Assembly (NCBI GenBank): GCA_021732845.1
Contig: JAKFUF010000003.1
Location: 64,001 to 96,759, forward strand
Source: Planctomycetaceae bacterium
Lineage (GTDB): Bacteria > Planctomycetota > Planctomycetia > Planctomycetales > Planctomycetaceae
Length of the DNA: 32,759 bases
Direction: 5' to 3'
Shown: piece by piece, positions 9,742 through 17,668 of the stretch
How positions within the stretch are numbered: the first letter of the stretch is position 1
How the letters are laid out: the number at the start of each line of letters is the position of its first letter
Made by a program: the position numbers and the translations under genes
The notes under the pieces: model-generated
What the model was told of the DNA's origin: nothing
Seen by the model: only the letters and a program-made list of their open reading frames with translations
Databases searched by the model: none

Positions 9742-12700
9742 ATGGGAACGGTCATCAATGTGCTGGCAGGCGGGGCTGGCCTCGGGAAAACAGGGACGCT
9801 GCTGAAGCGTTATCGCGAAGCTCTGCGGGCGGGGCACGCCGCACGCCAGCCGGGCCGCACCCTGTGGCTCGCCCCCACTCATCGCAGCGCCCAGGCGATT
9901 CGCGAGCAACTGGTGGACGACAGCTTCGCCGCCGTCTTCAGCCCGCATGTGGTGACGTTTGACGACTTCGCCCGCCGTGTCCTGCAGACCGTCCCCGAAC
10001 CCGTGGCTCCGCTCTCGCCCGTGATGAAGCGGACCCTGCTGCGGCGGATTGTCGCGCGTCAGCTTGAAGCCCGCCGCCTGCGGCACTTCGCCAACATCTC
10101 CCAAACCAGCGGCTTCATTGACCTGCTGGCGGGCTTCATTTCCGAGATGAAACGGGGCGAGATCTGGCCCGAGCGGTTCGAGGAAATTTGCAGCCACGGG
10201 GGGCGGCTGCCGCTGCGCGACAAGGAACTGGCCGGACTGTACCGGGAATATCAAGACCTGCTCTTGCGGGAGAAACTCTACGACACCGAGGGCCGCTTCT
10301 GGTCGGCCCGCGAGGCGCTGAAGGCCGGCTACTGGGGGCCGTTCGCCAACGTGTCCCTCGTCGTCGTCGATGGCTTCACCGACTTTATGTACACCCAGTA
10401 CGAAATTCTCCAGCAGTTGACGCGGCGTGCGGATGAACTGTGGCTGTCGCTGCCGCTGGAATTTGACGGACGCCGGGCGGACCTGTTCGCCAAAACCGGG
10501 GATGTGTACGGCCGGGTCCAAAAGTTCGCCGAAGTTCAGGTGGTGAACCCGGAGGGCCGCCAGCTTTCTGCCGAGCGCCAAGGCAATGAGGCGACGACCG
10601 CGGACCAGCCCGGCGGGCTCCAGCATGTCGCCAAGCATCTGTTCTGCAACCCGCGAGAGATCGTGCCGGGCACCAACGGCGCGGGCATCGAACTGGTGAC
10701 CGTGGCCGGGCAGCACGGCGAAGTGCGGATGCTGGCGAGCCGCATCAAACAGTTGCTGCTGGAAGGTGTGCCACCGGGAGACATCGTCGTCGCCCTGCGT
10801 GGCCTGGACGACTACGCCGATCTGCTGGAGTCCACCTTCCGCGCCTCCAGCATTCCATTCGCGAGTGAGGCAGGCCGCCCCCTTTCACGCAGCCCCGTGC
10901 TGCGCGCCGTGCTTTCGGCACTGAGGTTGGAAACGGAGGGCTGGTCGTTCCGCCGGCTCATGGGCCTGTTGAATTCCAATTTCTTCAACCCGTCCTGGCC
11001 TGAGTTTCGAGAAGGCGATGCCAGGGGAGAGACCGCCACGGTGCTGCGGCGAATGAAGCTCGACGCCGACCGCGAACAGATGCTGTATGGCCTGCACCGT
11101 GAACGCCAGAACAACGAAAGAGTTCAGGCAGCGGCAATGAGCCCGCGGGACGATGGCAGCCCGGCCACGCCGCTGACGCAGACGGCGATGGACTGGCACG
11201 CCGCCGTTTCGCACGCGACGCTGCTGTTGGAACGGCTCTCCGCGGAGATGGCGCGGCTGCGGGGGAAGGCGACGTTCGCGCAGTGGGCGGACACGGTTGT
11301 CAGCCTGGCACGGGTCTTGGGGTTGCGTCCCCCAGAGCCGCTCGTCGATGCCGACGGCACGGCGCTGGGCGAGCCGATCCTCATCAAGGATGATGCCACG
11401 GATGATCCCGATGCCCGCGGTTGGGAGCTGTTCGAGCGGCTGTTGTTCGATGCCGCCCGGGCTGAGCGGCACCTCCTGGAACCGCCGGCCGAGATGACGC
11501 TCGACGGATTCGTGCATGAATTGACCGACCTCTTAAAGAACGAGCGGCTGGGATCGCGCGTGCGGGAGGAAGGCCGGGTCCGTATTCTGGATGCGCCGCA
11601 GGTCCGCAATCTCAACGTGCCCTACCTGTTCCTGGCCGGTCTCACGGAACGCAGCTTCCCCGGCCACTCGGGCGACGACTGCCTGTTCAGCGATGCCGAG
11701 CGGCGGCGGCTGTTCGACCTCGGGCTGACCATCGGCCACCGCGCATCGCACCAGCAGGAAGAACTGCTGCTGTTCTATGGCGTGGTCACCCGCGCCCGCA
11801 AGCTGCTGGTGCTCAGCTATCCGGCGGTCAGCACGGATGGTCACCCGCTCACGGCGAGCCCCTATCTGGTTGCCTTGAAATCGCTGTTTGCCAAAGGGAT
11901 GCTGACGGAAAGCCTCGACGAACACCTGTCGCCGGTCCCCGAGCGGACGCATGTCCTGACAGAGGCCGACGCCCGGGTGCGGGCCATGCACGAGGTGCTG
12001 GAAGGGAAGCCGGAGTTGTGCGTCAGCCTCTGCCAGCGCGAACCATCACGGACGGCGGTGGTCAACGCACTCTCCGCGGTCGACATGGCGGTGTCGCGGT
12101 TCCATTCGCCGGGATTTCATCACTACGAAGGACGGCTGCAAAACGCCCGCAACCTGTCGCAGATCGCCCGTTGGTTCGCCAGGCAGCACGAGTTCAGCGC
12201 CACCCAACTGGAGGCCTATGCGCAGTGCCCGTTCAAGTTCATGATGGCAAATGTCCTCAAGATCGACGAGCAGGAATCGGAGGAGGTCGAGACGGATGTG
12301 GGGCTGCGGGGGACGATGGTCCATGCCGTGCTGTCCGACCTGCACAGCCAGTGGACTGCCACGCCAGGGCCGCCCACGGGCGATGAGCTGGCGACCCGGT
12401 TCTGCGAACTGATGGCCGCCCGGTTGAAACGCCAGCCGAACCGGTCCGACCTGCAGGCCGCACTGCTGGAAATCGAACGCCGCCTGCTGAACGAGTGGGC
12501 CGTCCAATACGGCGAGCAGTGGGACGACTACCGTTCTGACATGGGCGCGCTCTGCGACCATCCCCCGCTGCCGAAGGTGCTGGAGACCACCTTTGGCACA
12601 CCCCGGCACGAGGCTGCCGTGCTGACGCCGCTGGCCGCCGGTGGGCTGACCTTCGGCGAGGGTGATGATGAAGTGCGTGTCGGCGGCCGGATCGACCGGA

Positions 12701-13209
12701 TTGATGTCGGTGTGAAACTTGGGAGGCCAGTGTTCACGGTGATTGATTACAAAACCGGCAAACCACCGGCCTTCCACCCCGAGCAGGTGGAGGCGGGGAA
12801 TTCACTGCAATTGCCGCTGTACACACTCGCCGTCCAGAAACTGCAGTTGGCGGGAACGGAGGCCGAGCCACTGCAGATGGCGTACTGGGGGCTGAAGGAA
12901 ACGGGTTTCGCTCCCGGCCTGAAGGGCCGCGAGGCAGCCAAGGGGCTGGACGAGGAGATGTGGGAAAGGCTGCAGCGGTCGCTGGAGAAGATCATCCCTC
13001 GGTTGGCGGCAGGCATCCGTCAGTCACAGTTTCCCGTCTATAACCCGGACATTCACTGCACGGCCCGCTGTGCCTACAAGTCCGTCTGCCGCATCGGCCA
13101 GATCCGCGCCCTTCCCGCCCGGCTCGGAAAGACCTGGCGACCGCCACTTCCCGCAGGCGAGCCAACGGGCCTGCCAGAGGCTGATGATTTCGGGGAAGCT
13201 CCGTTTTAA
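9742..13209 (+). CDS. addB: AddB-like ATP-dependent helicase/exonuclease subunit (PD-(D/E)XK nuclease)
   Basis: The 1155-residue product begins with a Walker A-like GGAGLGKT (residues 10-17) and continues with a UvrD/AddB-type region (LWLAPTHRSAQAIREQL, VTFDDFARRVL, LFLAGLTERSFPG). The C-terminal third is a RecB-family nuclease: GGRIDRID, then VIDYKTGK with Asp 1002 and Lys 1004, then the QLPLY box. Four cysteines suited to an iron-sulfur cluster are present, Cys 829 (YAQCPF) and Cys 1106, 1110 and 1116 in a CX3CX5C arrangement. By family knowledge AddB works with AddA to resect DNA ends for recombination and to degrade foreign linear DNA. No addA is in the window. The ATG at 9742 has GAGGTG upstream at a good distance. 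Length matches AddB (about 1150 residues). Confidence 0.88.
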   Translation: MGTVINVLAGGAGLGKTGTLLKRYREALRAGHAARQPGRTLWLAPTHRSAQAIREQLVDDSFAAVFSPHVVTFDDFARRVLQTVPEPVAPLSPVMKRTLLRRIVARQLEARRLRHFANISQTSGFIDLLAGFISEMKRGEIWPERFEEICSHGGRLPLRDKELAGLYREYQDLLLREKLYDTEGRFWSAREALKAGYWGPFANVSLVVVDGFTDFMYTQYEILQQLTRRADELWLSLPLEFDGRRADLFAKTGDVYGRVQKFAEVQVVNPEGRQLSAERQGNEATTADQPGGLQHVAKHLFCNPREIVPGTNGAGIELVTVAGQHGEVRMLASRIKQLLLEGVPPGDIVVALRGLDDYADLLESTFRASSIPFASEAGRPLSRSPVLRAVLSALRLETEGWSFRRLMGLLNSNFFNPSWPEFREGDARGETATVLRRMKLDADREQMLYGLHRERQNNERVQAAAMSPRDDGSPATPLTQTAMDWHAAVSHATLLLERLSAEMARLRGKATFAQWADTVVSLARVLGLRPPEPLVDADGTALGEPILIKDDATDDPDARGWELFERLLFDAARAERHLLEPPAEMTLDGFVHELTDLLKNERLGSRVREEGRVRILDAPQVRNLNVPYLFLAGLTERSFPGHSGDDCLFSDAERRRLFDLGLTIGHRASHQQEELLLFYGVVTRARKLLVLSYPAVSTDGHPLTASPYLVALKSLFAKGMLTESLDEHLSPVPERTHVLTEADARVRAMHEVLEGKPELCVSLCQREPSRTAVVNALSAVDMAVSRFHSPGFHHYEGRLQNARNLSQIARWFARQHEFSATQLEAYAQCPFKFMMANVLKIDEQESEEVETDVGLRGTMVHAVLSDLHSQWTATPGPPTGDELATRFCELMAARLKRQPNRSDLQAALLEIERRLLNEWAVQYGEQWDDYRSDMGALCDHPPLPKVLETTFGTPRHEAAVLTPLAAGGLTFGEGDDEVRVGGRIDRIDVGVKLGRPVFTVIDYKTGKPPAFHPEQVEAGNSLQLPLYTLAVQKLQLAGTEAEPLQMAYWGLKETGFAPGLKGREAAKGLDEEMWERLQRSLEKIIPRLAAGIRQSQFPVYNPDIHCTARCAYKSVCRIGQIRALPARLGKTWRPPLPAGEPTGLPEADDFGEAPF

Positions 13210-13260
13210 GTTCAAAAATCGAGGAGCCAGACCATTCGCCTTTGGACAGGGCGTGGCATA

Positions 13261-13328
13261 ATCAAGGATCAACTATCACGGAGTTGGCAGGGTTGCGCTG
13301 TTTGGCCCCTGCACAGTTGATCCTCGAT
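13261..13328 (+). repeat. Long inverted repeat / nested hairpin upstream of the AAA ATPase gene
   Basis: The arms 13261-13274 (ATCAAGGATCAACT) and 13315-13328 (AGTTGATCCTCGAT) pair at 13 of 14 positions across 40 bases. Inside them GCAGGG (13287-13292) pairs with CCCTGC (13307-13312), giving a nested stem. The structure ends 53 bases before the GTG start of the ATPase gene. It could be a structured RNA leader, an operator or the remnant of a mobile element. It has no U-tract and so does not look like an intrinsic terminator. Confidence 0.6.
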
Positions 13329-13381
13329 TTGATTCGGGGCGTACTCAAAGACTGTCTGGAAGGACGCGCAAGGAGACGCTC

Positions 13382-14488
13382 GTGGATTTGGCCCAACCAC
13401 AAATACAGACGATCAGGGTGTCTGGCTTTAAGTCGCTGAGACGGTGTGCGGTCGACCTCACATCGCTCAATGTGCTGATCGGTGCCAATGGGGCCGGAAA
13501 ATCCAATCTGGCCAGCCTGTTTGAGTTCCTTGCCGCCTCCCTGGATCATGGGCTCGAAGAGTATGTCGGGAGAAACGGCGGCCCCAATTCCATCTTGTTT
13601 CAAGGAGCCAAGACGACCGGCGAGATCGCGGTGGCGGTGACCGTTTCGACCGCTGGCGGATCGGGAACGCTCTATCAGCGATGCGTCTACAAACCTCCTG
13701 GCAGCATGTTCTACAGCGGAAATCATGCCGGAGGACCTGGGAACATCGTCCGGAGTGATGAAGTCGTCTTCGATGGCTTATGCAGCGTTATCCAACAAGA
13801 TGGGGCAGGTCACCCGGGCCAGTTGATCTATGAATCGCTGAAGCGCCGGACCTTTCGCCTGCACCTGCTGGATACCAGCCTAAATTCGCCAATGCGCACA
13901 GAGGGCTACATCGAAGACAACGCCCGACTTCGCCATGATGGAGGCAATCTGGCTGCCAGACTCTACCTGCTCAAGCAGACCGCGCCGAAGGTGTTAGAGC
14001 GGATTCGGTCCACGATTCGCAAGATTGTTCCGGGCTTCGATGACTTTGTGCTGGAGCCACAACGGCTGAACCCGAGAAACATTCTTCTGAACTGGAAACA
14101 GGTGGGAAGCGACTACCTTCTCGGGCCGCACCAAATTTCCGATGGCAGCCTGCGCTCAATGGCGCTGGTGACCTTGCTGTTGCAGCCCAGCAGTGAACTT
14201 CCGGACCTGATCGTGCTGGACGAGCCGGAACTGGGACTGCATCCGCATGCGGCCTCCATGCTTGCCGGGCTGATCCGAGCCACGTCTGTGAAGTCTCAGT
14301 TGCTTGTCTGCACGCAATCTCCGACGTTTGTGGATGAATTCCTGCCGGAAGAAGTGATCGTGGCCGACTCGAGAAATGGCGAGTCGCAGTTCCGTCGCCT
14401 TGCCTCAAATTCTCTGACCAACTGGCTGGAAGAATACAGCCTTGGGGAGCTGTGGCAGAAGAATGTCCTCGGCGGAGGGCCGGTGTGA
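13382..14488 (+). CDS. AAA family ATPase (COG4637-type predicted ATPase)
   Basis: The 368-residue product begins with a GTG start; an A/G-rich AAGGAGACG lies just upstream as Shine-Dalgarno. It has the ABC/SMC-like ATPase layout of the AAA_21/COG4637 group: IQTIRVSGFKSLRR strand, Walker A GANGAGKS at 34-41, a central insertion of about 150 residues, the signature-like ISDGSLRSMALVTLLL, Walker B LIVLDEPELGLHPHA with Asp 280 and Glu 281, and a TQSPTFVDEF switch segment. Proteins of this type are often encoded directly before a TOPRIM-like DUF4276 protein. OLD-like ATPase/TOPRIM pairs include known phage-defence systems, so a defence role is plausible but not shown. Its stop overlaps the start of such a partner by 4 bases (GTGA), and that partner is truncated here. 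Confidence 0.88.
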   Translation: MDLAQPQIQTIRVSGFKSLRRCAVDLTSLNVLIGANGAGKSNLASLFEFLAASLDHGLEEYVGRNGGPNSILFQGAKTTGEIAVAVTVSTAGGSGTLYQRCVYKPPGSMFYSGNHAGGPGNIVRSDEVVFDGLCSVIQQDGAGHPGQLIYESLKRRTFRLHLLDTSLNSPMRTEGYIEDNARLRHDGGNLAARLYLLKQTAPKVLERIRSTIRKIVPGFDDFVLEPQRLNPRNILLNWKQVGSDYLLGPHQISDGSLRSMALVTLLLQPSSELPDLIVLDEPELGLHPHAASMLAGLIRATSVKSQLLVCTQSPTFVDEFLPEEVIVADSRNGESQFRRLASNSLTNWLEEYSLGELWQKNVLGGGPV

Positions 14489-14790
14489 ACAAGGCGCTCT
14501 ACGTCTTCTGTGAAGGCCGAACCGAGCAGAGTTTTTGCAGGCAAGTCCTGCAACCGACCTTCTTTCCGCATCACGATGGAGAGGTGCGTGCTGGCTCAAT
14601 GACAAGCACCTTGCCACGGCGGGAGGCCACGATCGCACGGGCCAAAAAAAATCACCCCGCCGCGCGGACGCGGCGGGGTCGGACTCGCGGGAATCCATTC
14701 AACCTTCTAAATCAAAATTCGGGGAATGTCCGCTCGGAGGAGGCTGCCAGTGACAATGGCTGCGTCAAGGTGCAAGCCGCACAAAACTGA
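14485..14790 (+). pseudogene. Truncated DUF4276 (TOPRIM-like) partner of the AAA ATPase
   Basis: The GTG at 14485 overlaps the ATPase stop in a GTGA junction, typical of translational coupling. The first 35 or so codons (NKALYVFCEGRTEQSFCRQV, then LQPTFFPHHDGEV) match the N-terminus of DUF4276 proteins, including the EGRTE motif that carries the first TOPRIM acidic residue. Similarity stops near 14590. The frame stays open to 14790, but the tail is basic and low in complexity and passes through a terminator hairpin of the opposite strand. DUF4276 proteins are about 200 residues, so the remaining acidic motifs are missing. I read this as a deletion or recombination scar that removed most of the gene. 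A short functional protein of 101 residues is unlikely but cannot be excluded. Confidence 0.72.
14644..14678 (-). terminator. Rho-independent terminator for minus-strand transcription
   Basis: CCCCGCCGCG (14655-14664) and CGCGGCGGGG (14669-14678) form a perfect 10-bp stem with a 4-base loop. Read on the minus strand the stem is followed within three bases by eight U residues (A run 14644-14651 on plus). It lies about 260 bases beyond the stop of the DUF11 lipoprotein gene and probably ends the surface-protein cluster transcript. Confidence 0.85.
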
Positions 14791-14935
14791 ATTCAACCGA
14801 AAGCATGTATGCACTATTGATCGAGATTACTCATCCGCATCGTATTGTCGGCATCTCCCGGTGCCTGTCGCGCTTGGGGCTGCAGCAGGCGCGCGGTGAC
14901 CCGTGCGGGCCGCATCCGTCGCGACCAGCCGCGTG

Positions 14936-16276
14936 TCATTTCACGCGGGCCTTGAAGGTCACCACGCCACCCTTGCCGCCGGAGACGGCACCATCCAGGA
15001 CCCATCGCAGGATGACGCTGCCTTCGTCGTTGTCGAAGACTTCCAGGGCTCCGTTGCGGTCGCTGGTGGCACTGTCGGGAATGTACTCCAGCCGCGGAGT
15101 GAGGTTGTCGGAGATCACCACGTTGTTCACCGCCAGGTCGCCCAGGTTGTCGTAGCGGATGGTGAAGGTGATCTCATCACCGGTCTTCGCGGTCTGGCGG
15201 TCGGCCAGCTTGACGATGCGGATCTTGCCCGGACGCGCTTCCGGATCGATGCCGGTCATCTCGCTCGTCTGGAACCGGGCTTTGATCTGGCCGAGGCCGT
15301 GGGCTTCGGCCGAGATGATGGGGTACTGCACGCGGGTCCATGTGAAGGCGGCCTGAATTCCCAGGGCCAGCCGGGCCTCATCGGATTGCTTCAAAGTGCC
15401 CGTTTGCAGAAACGCGAGATCGTTGAGGGCAATGATCGTCTGTTCGTGGGTGATGATCTTGACGGGCAAGTGCATTTCGTTCCGCTGCGTCTTCGTCGTG
15501 ACCATGCTGCCCCGCATCCGTGTCACGATCCGCCCGGCACTGTCCTTTTGCTCGGCATCAATGACCATCTGGCGGTTGCGCATGTTGCCGCCCCGCAGGA
15601 CGACGGACGCACCGACGATCTGGTCCATGGCCACGTCTTCGTTCACGCCGCTGACGGTGGTCACCGCCGCGAACCGCGGCGCGTAGACGCAGACGGAATT
15701 TGAAGGCTTCACCCGGCGTTTTCCGCTGGAGTCCGTAAACTCCACGACGGTGTCTTCGGTCTCCAGACCGGCCATCTGGTCGCCCATGTAATGCACGGGA
15801 TGGCCACGGTCGCCGCCGTCACACAAATACTCGTCGGGAAAATCCTCCAGAGTTTCGCGCAGACAGCCAGCCGGCGGGCAGGGACATTCTTCCAGACCCG
15901 AGGCACGCTCGACAAACAGCCGGGGGTTTTCCTCATCGCCGGCATCCACCGCAACCGCCACGGAGACTGTCGCGACGCCCTCAGGTTCGTCCATGCCGCT
16001 GCTGACATCGGCGGCAGCATCGTTTCGCTCGCCGGCATCCGTCTCAGCATCACTTTCGACGACTTGGTGGCCAATCGGCCTCACGGCGTAGTCGACATAC
16101 GAGGTTCGGTGTTCGGTGGCTTGCTCGGGCATCGCCGCCTGGGGAGACAGTGACCGCGCACCGCAGCCAGTCAGCCCCAGCGCCAGGATCACCCCCGCGC
16201 TGACATGTCGCTGCCATGGCCCGCCGATCGCGCAGCGTGCCCACCAAGGGCGGCAGGTTGCATTGAAGGAGACCAT
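14936..16276 (-). CDS. DUF11-domain lipoprotein
   Basis: The 446-residue product has a long N-region, a hydrophobic segment at about 25-37 and a lipobox LTGC at 35-38, so it should be exported and lipid-anchored at Cys 38. An acidic linker (about 75-120) and a cysteine-rich ECPCPPAGCLRE segment follow. A central region of unknown fold leads to a C-terminal DUF11 domain at about 360-446 (TAKTGDEITFTIRYDNLGDL, VVISDNLTPRLEYIPDS, FKARVK), an Ig-like fold repeated in many bacterial surface proteins. It is the last gene of a four-gene minus-strand cluster, 82 bases after the upstream small lipoprotein gene, with a terminator downstream. The start at 16276 lacks a clear Shine-Dalgarno, and the true start could be a few codons inside. 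Function is unknown, probably envelope structure. Confidence 0.85.
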   Translation of the reverse strand: MVSFNATCRPWWARCAIGGPWQRHVSAGVILALGLTGCGARSLSPQAAMPEQATEHRTSYVDYAVRPIGHQVVESDAETDAGERNDAAADVSSGMDEPEGVATVSVAVAVDAGDEENPRLFVERASGLEECPCPPAGCLRETLEDFPDEYLCDGGDRGHPVHYMGDQMAGLETEDTVVEFTDSSGKRRVKPSNSVCVYAPRFAAVTTVSGVNEDVAMDQIVGASVVLRGGNMRNRQMVIDAEQKDSAGRIVTRMRGSMVTTKTQRNEMHLPVKIITHEQTIIALNDLAFLQTGTLKQSDEARLALGIQAAFTWTRVQYPIISAEAHGLGQIKARFQTSEMTGIDPEARPGKIRIVKLADRQTAKTGDEITFTIRYDNLGDLAVNNVVISDNLTPRLEYIPDSATSDRNGALEVFDNDEGSVILRWVLDGAVSGGKGGVVTFKARVK

Positions 16277-16358
16277 GGGATGACTCGCGAAAGGATGGCG
16301 GCGACGTGTCGGAGGACGGTGGCTGAATGGCTTTCAGCGTGTGCGGTGAAGGCCCACT

Positions 16359-16697
16359 CTATCGGTCACCCACGAACTTGATGACCTTCGAGCCCACCCG
16401 GGCCTGCGGGGTTCGCCGCACGGGAGACTCTTCGGCATTGCTCTCTTCGTTGGCAACGCGTTTCGGTGCGGTCGGGCCGGTCGACCGGCTTTCGAAGGCG
16501 TCTTTCGCGGAGACCTCGGTATGCTCCACCGTCATGATGCTGGGCACGCCGCGGTCAAGGAACGGGTCTCCCCCGCCCCGCATGCGTCCGCCCTTCATGG
16601 CCGTGCTGCTGCCGGCGCAGCCCATCAGGCTCACCACCACCGCCAATGTGGACCAACGGGCAACCTGGCAAAGCCGGATCGGAAGTGCATTCTGCAT
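16359..16697 (-). CDS. Small lipoprotein, unknown function
   Basis: The 112-residue product has a signal segment with a lipobox-like LMGC at 24-27, followed by a Gly/Arg-rich stretch (GGRMRGGGDPF) and a charged, probably disordered remainder ending in SKVIKFVGDR. The ATG at 16697 has a strong Shine-Dalgarno, AAGGAGTG, six bases upstream. It sits 71 bases after the preceding paralogue gene and 82 bases before the DUF11 lipoprotein, all on the same strand, which suggests one transcript. I recognise no domain. Confidence 0.72.
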   Translation of the reverse strand: MQNALPIRLCQVARWSTLAVVVSLMGCAGSSTAMKGGRMRGGGDPFLDRGVPSIMTVEHTEVSAKDAFESRSTGPTAPKRVANEESNAEESPVRRTPQARVGSKVIKFVGDR

Positions 16698-16768
16698 GGT
16701 TCACTCCTTGGCCTGAGACGGCTTGATGGGAACGGGGAGTACTGTGACCAGATTGACACGGCCCCGGG

Positions 16769-17668
16769 CTACTCGGTGATGTCCAACAGCTCGTCCACGT
16801 CCGGCATTGTCTTGGAAGATGTCACGCGTGCCGGCTGCCGCGAAGCTGCGGCGTGGCTTGGTGTGGCTTTCGTCCCCTTGGCACTGGTGCGACTCACATT
16901 CGCGCGGGCCGGGGCGGTTTCAGGCAGGGAGAATTGCACTGGAGCACCCGCCCCGAAAAAGGTCACAAATCCTGGACCCTCTGGCGGCTGCCGGCCGCCG
17001 AGGCGAATGATGGCCATTGGCCGGCCGAGTTCGTCGGCTGTCACCAAGGCATCTTCCCGACGCGTGGCCCGCCGCGTTGGCGCCGAATCGCCGATCGCCC
17101 CGCCGATCGCCCGGTCCGGCTGTTCCAGGTAGATCACCTTGGTCACCATCTGGCCGCGGAGTGCCGTCCGAATCTCGTCACCGGTGAAGACCAGTGGCAC
17201 GGGATACTCGGCCGCCCGTCCCGCTGGCGGATGCAGGCGGCTGATCAGCTCCACGGTCGGATAGAGGTCCACACCGGGAAAATCGTCCAGGTCGCTCAGC
17301 TTCAGCCGATAAACCGGACCTACCAGGAAGTCGGCCTGTGCCGGAGCCACCTGGGTGGGGAAGGCCGAGGCGTTCGGACCATAAAACGTCACCTGGCCGG
17401 CACAGGGAAGCTCAACCTTGATCGGCTGAAAGTACTGCTCCAAACCCGGGCGGATGGTTCCGGCCCACGCTCCGGCAATGCCCGGCGGAACTGTCTGTCG
17501 AAGCGGTGCATACCGTTCAGGCTGGGCCTGAACGGGTGCTGTCCAGATCGTCACGCAGCAGACCGGGCTGAGGACCACAAAGATGGCTCCGCTCAGGCAC
17601 CGCCACCAGTTGCCGCGGACTGCGGCACACGGCATCGGTGCCGTCAGCGAGAGTGCAGAGTGTGACAT
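16769..17668 (-). CDS. Exported protein, paralogue of the 17936-19213 lipoprotein
   Basis: The 299-residue product has a signal peptide (hydrophobic segment about 25-45, cleavage likely after PVQA). Residues about 90-215 align with the neighbouring protein encoded at 17936-19213: QVTFYGPNAS against QVRFVGPEGT, GPVYRLKLSDL against GATYRLTLSNL, DLYPTVELI against TLYPTLQVY, PVPLVFTGDEI against PVQITDEDL, and TKVIYLEQP against TKVIYLPSP. The shared region ends with an AIIRLGG or AVLRLGN segment. The C-terminal third is Ala/Ser/Thr-rich and basic and ends DVDELLDITE. It has no lipobox, unlike its paralogue. No named domain is recognised; the repeated beta-strand pattern suggests a surface or periplasmic beta domain. 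The Shine-Dalgarno is weak. A tandem duplication is the simplest origin. Confidence 0.82.
   Translation of the reverse strand: MSHSALSLTAPMPCAAVRGNWWRCLSGAIFVVLSPVCCVTIWTAPVQAQPERYAPLRQTVPPGIAGAWAGTIRPGLEQYFQPIKVELPCAGQVTFYGPNASAFPTQVAPAQADFLVGPVYRLKLSDLDDFPGVDLYPTVELISRLHPPAGRAAEYPVPLVFTGDEIRTALRGQMVTKVIYLEQPDRAIGGAIGDSAPTRRATRREDALVTADELGRPMAIIRLGGRQPPEGPGFVTFFGAGAPVQFSLPETAPARANVSRTSAKGTKATPSHAAASRQPARVTSSKTMPDVDELLDITE

Follow-up and report, generated by a model that had tools for sequence, protein, structure and literature searches.

A probably decayed HEC-01-type module in a Planctomycetaceae genome and the apparent order in which such two-gene loci break down

In the window, that is, the whole stretch of 32,759 nucleotides of Planctomycetaceae DNA analysed here, a complete ATPase gene overlaps a second frame that resembles a partner family for about 34 codons and then no longer does. 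The locus raises the questions of what kind of module it was, how the second gene came to be cut short and why the ATPase is still there. We suggest that a module of a known candidate kind has decayed here and that the locus is one case of an apparently recurrent decay order. In the reading that we consider likely, a deletion took about 85% of the DUF4276 Toprim partner of a HEC-01-type module, and the intact ATPase and a stub of 34 codons remain. The deletion would also have reached as far as the 3' side of the convergent gene (Table 1).

Table 1. Features at and around the ATPase/partner locus (positions in the window)
Feature	Position	Strand	Remarks
AddB-like gene	9742-13209		upstream of the ATPase; PDDEXK_1, ADDB_N
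Inverted repeat	13260-13329		between AddB and the ATPase; 15 nt (93%), 40 nt between arms
Intact AAA_21/HEC-01A-type ATPase (HecA)	13382-14488	+	368 aa, GTG start
DUF4276/HEC-01B Toprim partner stub	14485-14586	+	about 34 codons, EGRTE motif; first strand and first helix only of the relative's model
Out-of-family tail	14587-14790	+	read by the stub frame to its stop; breakpoint between 14586 and the terminator
Intrinsic-terminator-like hairpin	14654-14679	-	11 pairs, T8 tail; downstream of the convergent gene
Convergent DUF11-domain gene	14936-16276	-	bounds the deletion

The ATPase, HecA, matches the Pfam family AAA_21 (3.7e-22) and, over its full length, the HEC-01A model of PADLOC (PDLC04175; residues 6-367, E 5.1e-111), a collection whose models cover known and candidate systems. 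On the side of the ATPase, the locus thus has what a HEC-01 system should have. We take the Walker A motif to lie near residues 34-41 and the Walker B motif to be DEPELGLHP at residues 280-288. The TGA of this gene (14486-14488) and the GTG of the partner (14485-14487) overlap in a GTGA junction, from which the partner frame runs for 101 residues. The initial annotation had read an intact ATPase and this overlap from the letters, and both are confirmed.

Only the beginning of the partner can be recognized. The HEC-01B model of PADLOC matches the 101-residue frame at residues 3-29 (E 2.3e-6) and not over its full length, and a HecB family profile made from the full-length partners of relatives (57 sequences) matches at positions 4-30 (E 8.4e-9 among the six frames, 1.7e-5 in a larger set). 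By contrast, Pfam found no family at all in this frame, and hence no DUF4276 (PF14103). Thus, the proposal that the first 35 or so codons are those of a DUF4276 protein with its EGRTE motif stands by the HEC-01B and family-profile matches and not by Pfam. BLASTP homology of the stub to two relatives (L022 and L016) stops at residue 34, nucleotide 14586, where an end of similarity near 14590 had been predicted. In the comparison with the closest relative found (L014), nucleotide identity is 12, 14, 13, 9 and 11 of 18 in successive blocks of six codons, falling to 7 of 18 over codons 31-60 and 2 of 18 over codons 61-66 (all in L014 codon numbers). Because identity collapses past the break, an alignment to L014 that stretched to residue 78 was treated as chance. 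At codon position 2, the GC content is 0.35 for the stub, 0.43 for the ATPase and 0.58 for the tail. A remainder of the partner in another frame further downstream was looked for in the six frames of 14401-15000 and rejected, all other frames listed for this interval scoring below zero bits with the 57-partner profile.

The intact form is seen in L014, a locus of a Gimesia sp. MAG, in which the ATPase is 72% identical in the alignment and the partner has 231 residues. This partner is a DUF4276 protein (PF14103, 165.8 bits vs. a cut-off of 30.2; 1.8e-48) and matches HEC-01B at 7e-72; it is on such intact partners of relatives, together with plasmid annotations, that the name DUF4276 for the stub rests. 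The AlphaFold2 model of the L014 partner (46 sequences, mean pLDDT 92.7) lies nearest to OLD Toprim domains (Z 8.8-9.6 over 169-180 residues, rmsd 4.1-4.2). It also aligns with PARIS AriB (Z 8.2 over 185 residues, rmsd 4.6, and Z 7.3), with GajA and retron-Eco8 (Z 6.5-7.1) and with the Thermus OLD (Z 6.2), where matches taken as unrelated begin at Z 5.9 and a Z below 8 may reflect a common arrangement only. A Pyrococcus structure titled hypothetical protein (2p62) scores Z 9.2. Plain Foldseek gave nothing for the model at E 0.001 or better, the best match being an OLD Toprim at E 0.011, and the HecB profile had no match among PDB sequences at E 1. An OLD/AriB-like Toprim fold of the relative's HecB is supported by the predicted structure, and with it the TOPRIM-like label that had been given to the partner.

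Across 46 partners, 12 columns do not vary: E9, G10, E13, D81, E130, E132, E167, P177, K192, C212, F215 and W218. The stub retains the first three; the other nine are gone, including D81, E130 and E132, and what is left falls short of a Toprim fold with its conserved acidic residues. Judged from its sequence, the stub would be without an active site, and the pair on this contig could no longer cut anything. We have filed the module as a decayed HEC-01 remnant and not as a working member. The full partner and the alignment break that had been expected from related genomes are both found with L014 (break at 14586), which belongs to another genus of the same family and is not a strain. The search for relatives gave no other genome of the window's genus, and the event is not seen against an intact close strain.

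Past the break, the stub frame continues through the opposite-strand terminator, as the initial annotation had pointed out. The hairpin has a fold z of -2.06, with 8 of 200 shuffles as good, and sits about 260 nt beyond the stop of the DUF11 gene, for which 160 of 170 genomes have a match at E 1e-30 or better (by similarity, not as established orthologues). One might ask whether the 101-residue frame is a real short protein made of the stub and a new tail, for example a decoy or an inhibitor, particularly as the frame overlaps the ATPase stop and its translation may be coupled. However, the tail has no family match and differs in its position-2 composition, the frame crosses the terminator, and its own genome contains no second copy; a functional short form is thus extremely improbable. 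No other classified locus shows the same break, and the search for the tail, which covered the window's own genome, gave no sign of a conserved short form. Beyond the earlier reading, comparable decay is seen repeatedly in the family.

The inverted repeat between AddB and the ATPase, the only one listed there, is possibly an operator or a hairpin. An origin from a mobile element was considered and set aside; the repeat listed upstream is only 15 nt long, and 14489-14930 is single-copy in the genome. GC rises from the ATPase (0.574) over the window (0.618) to AddB (0.654), and the lower value of the ATPase is compatible with acquisition. An empty site was looked for, and AddB was beside the DUF11 gene in none of the 21 family genomes in which each has a listed position; the two genes are on different contigs in 15 of these and at least 48 kb apart in the other 6. 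In another locus (L276), the partner stub likewise runs into a convergent gene, and that neighbor resembles trpB by eye.

Could the break instead be an artefact of assembly, the real genome having a full partner? In favor of this, the genome is in many pieces (262 contigs) and 95.7% complete. With the L014 partner as query, the whole genome yielded no more than the stub and, near the start of contig C121, a C-terminal fragment, while the HecB family profile yielded the stub, this fragment and a divergent partner on contig C129; the single query had missed the latter, and we relied on both searches. The C121 fragment (L126, 382-507), which covers partner profile 183-224 and is preceded by 381 bases of contig, might seem to be the missing end. 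However, it is closest to the partner of L129 (26 of 39 residues), L014 ranking 39th of 71 (17 of 38), and its contig continues into other genes. The fragment is of the L129 and not the L014 subtype, which rules it out as the lost piece and makes it a remnant of another, third pair. Moreover, contig C14 extends well past the break on both sides, the terminator and the body of a family-wide gene coming next, and similar stubs are known from a complete plasmid and from contigs several megabases long. We therefore hold an artefact to be very unlikely. The deletion of the Toprim part from a decayed module, as first proposed, is supported, the remainder having been found neither near the stub nor elsewhere in the 96%-complete genome.

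The partner on C129 belongs to a second HEC-01-like ATPase and DUF4276 pair (approximately 15417-17167; L127 6418-8168), in which both frames are open (HEC-01A 2.6e-75, DUF4276 6.5e-26) and the ATPase is 34-35% identical to that of the window in two matched segments. Through this pair, a HEC-01-like system may still be available to the cell.

With HEC-01, a candidate defence system in PADLOC-DB, the locus shares the gene order, the overlapping junction, the full-length ATPase match and the N-terminal match of the partner; it differs in that the partner has nothing after about residue 34, and the module is incomplete. PARIS, composed of the AriA ATPase and the AriB Toprim protein, has the same two-gene layout, and the relative's HecB model aligns with AriB. 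However, HecA is only weakly AriA-like (6.3e-23), HEC-01A scoring far higher, and the effector family is DUF4276 and not that of AriB, which is DUF4435. In other words, there is no AriB-type effector next to an AriA here, the stub and the partners of relatives matching HEC-01B/DUF4276. OLD nucleases, Gabija GajA and the retron-Eco8 effector likewise join an ATPase to a Toprim domain, but as a single fused polypeptide, whereas HEC-01 has two genes. The best Foldseek matches of a HecA model are Septu/retron PtuA ATPases and SMC heads (E about 2e-14 for a retron I-A ATPase and for an SMC head); the partner of PtuA is an HNH nuclease and not a Toprim protein. The papers in our full-text literature search do not mention DUF4276.

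In PARIS, the AriA hexamer keeps AriB inactive, binding of a phage trigger releases AriB, and released AriB cleaves tRNA (PMC12409363). By analogy, HecA would be the sensor and restrainer and HecB would cut nucleic acid; in a complete pair, HecA is most likely what detects infection and keeps the Toprim nuclease switched off until a trigger arrives. We infer restraint, nuclease activity, toxicity and a defence role for the HEC-01 pair.

The intactness of the ATPase can be read in two ways. In an alignment of 47 sequences, of which the window is a member, HecA keeps all 37 invariant columns, and compared with the 37 columns that are invariant in the other sequences alone, it shows 0 departures. 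Among the 64 columns with at least 90% conservation in the others, it departs at 5, which is more than in most sequences (median 1; 5 or more in 4 of 47). Because the HecA of L014, with its intact partner, has 7 such departures that cover all five positions, four with the same residue, these departures are a trait of the subtype. Nothing in the window ATPase suggests that it has begun to decay after losing its partner, and recent loss and continued use are both compatible with its intact columns: it is either a recent leftover or kept for another reason. It might have been kept for a function of its own, as a stand-alone sensor or a DNA-binding or regulatory ATPase, in a derived single-gene form. 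The departures shared with L014 fit this idea, as do stubs beside intact ATPases on a complete cyanobacterial plasmid and on long contigs of other genomes. However, a recent deletion would look identical, no shared form was seen among the eleven deletion-type partner breaks described below, and in nine clusters both genes are broken, so that the ATPase is lost in time too. We regard a stand-alone ATPase as unlikely.

ATPases of the window type are rare in the family: at E 1e-60 or better, they occur in 8 of 170 genomes, counting that of the window. The partner is broken in three of these (the window, L009 and L129) and intact in five (the Gimesia genome of L014, L010, L130, L131 and L132). L129 lacks profile positions 36-180 and L009 positions 30-64. 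In L015 (4496-5417), HecA 5-272 is fused directly to HecB 95-137, both ends being lost. Of the 25 plasmid matches listed, out of 136 records with any match, 15 are at 36-40% identity over nearly the full length; the partner is present on 12 plasmid records, all among these 15. The remaining three are Tolypothrix/Microchaete plasmids, and the one examined keeps only about the first 15 partner residues.

The frequency of such decay was surveyed in 170 loci (the window, 78, 9, 30 hand-picked and 52), grouped into 143 HecA clusters; more divergent AAA matches were left out, as was the second ATPase copy of L215, which matches profile 2-337 and has a partner stub of 2-20. Before revision, both genes were intact in 99 clusters, only the partner was broken in 15, only the ATPase in 6 and both in 13, and 10 were limited by contig ends. 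After revision by hand, 18 clusters are broken in the partner only (17 without the window) vs. 2 in the ATPase only (L073 and L213). Set aside from the latter class were L042 (a run of N), L194 (a long single frame matching from profile 23) and L198 and L176 (single open frames). L129, whose deletion has both its ends within the sequence, was counted as broken instead of contig-limited, L242 and L245 were added because clustering at 93% had merged them with relatives that have intact partners, and L274 (1615-2753), whose ATPase and partner are about 1.1 kb apart, was left as intact. Both genes are broken in nine clusters, L015 included, after four ambiguous ones were set aside (L083 and L087, with the ATPase at the contig start; L081 and L210, with an unclear ATPase start). 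Break positions were entered by hand, and the very short stub of L030 was read by eye. In total, the partner is broken beside 18 of about 119 intact ATPases in these revised clusters, window included.

Given gene lengths of 227 and 368, 17 partner-only clusters out of 19 with a single broken gene correspond to a p of 5e-6, a value that is too strong because most loci were found via the ATPase and large ATPase deletions escape such a search. Point lesions hardly hide a locus and form the class least biased in this way; here, 7 partner-only clusters (L018, L028, L071, L179, L208, L242 and L245) stand against the 2 ATPase-only clusters (p 0.019), or against 3 (p 0.042) if L240, with a nonsense codon in the ATPase and a partner cut by the contig end, is counted against the bias. 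In 392 Planctomycetota genomes searched from both sides, there were three or four partner-only loci (G465, G494, the window and perhaps G525) vs. one ATPase-only locus (G514); this set alone is not significant (3 of 4, p 0.16). Thus, the sources agree in the direction of a partner-first bias, and its strength is modest. The lesions comprise frameshifts, a nonsense codon and deletions of differing extent, 11 deletion-type breaks falling at profile positions 15 to 158, with 7 at or before 35. Because the lesions differ in kind, they look like independent events.

A sensor/restrainer model predicts that the effector is lost first, because earlier loss of the restrainer would free the nuclease. 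We read the bias as decay that begins with the effector, the Toprim protein probably being costly to keep and the ATPase acting as its sensor and restrainer. Partner-first loss points to the DUF4276 protein as this costly effector, and the partner is predicted to be toxic when freed. A stronger version, in which the decay of HEC-01 modules follows a fixed sequence, the gene of the DUF4276 Toprim protein breaking first, with the ATPase persisting as an antitoxin-like restrainer or because it is otherwise useful, is a tentative proposal that we find somewhat doubtful; if true, the order of decay would reveal the toxin partner in untested two-gene defence systems. By itself, this is one more broken defence locus, and it is the survey that makes the HEC-01 decay order testable. 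For annotation, an intact HEC-01A match does not imply a working system.

Programmed frameshifting was considered for four loci with lesions near profile 40 (L028, L071, L208 and L210), in which no shared slippery site was seen, and they were taken as ordinary lesions. In L087 (600-2601), about 1.3 kb of other sequence, possibly a mobile element, interrupts the partner near residue 127.
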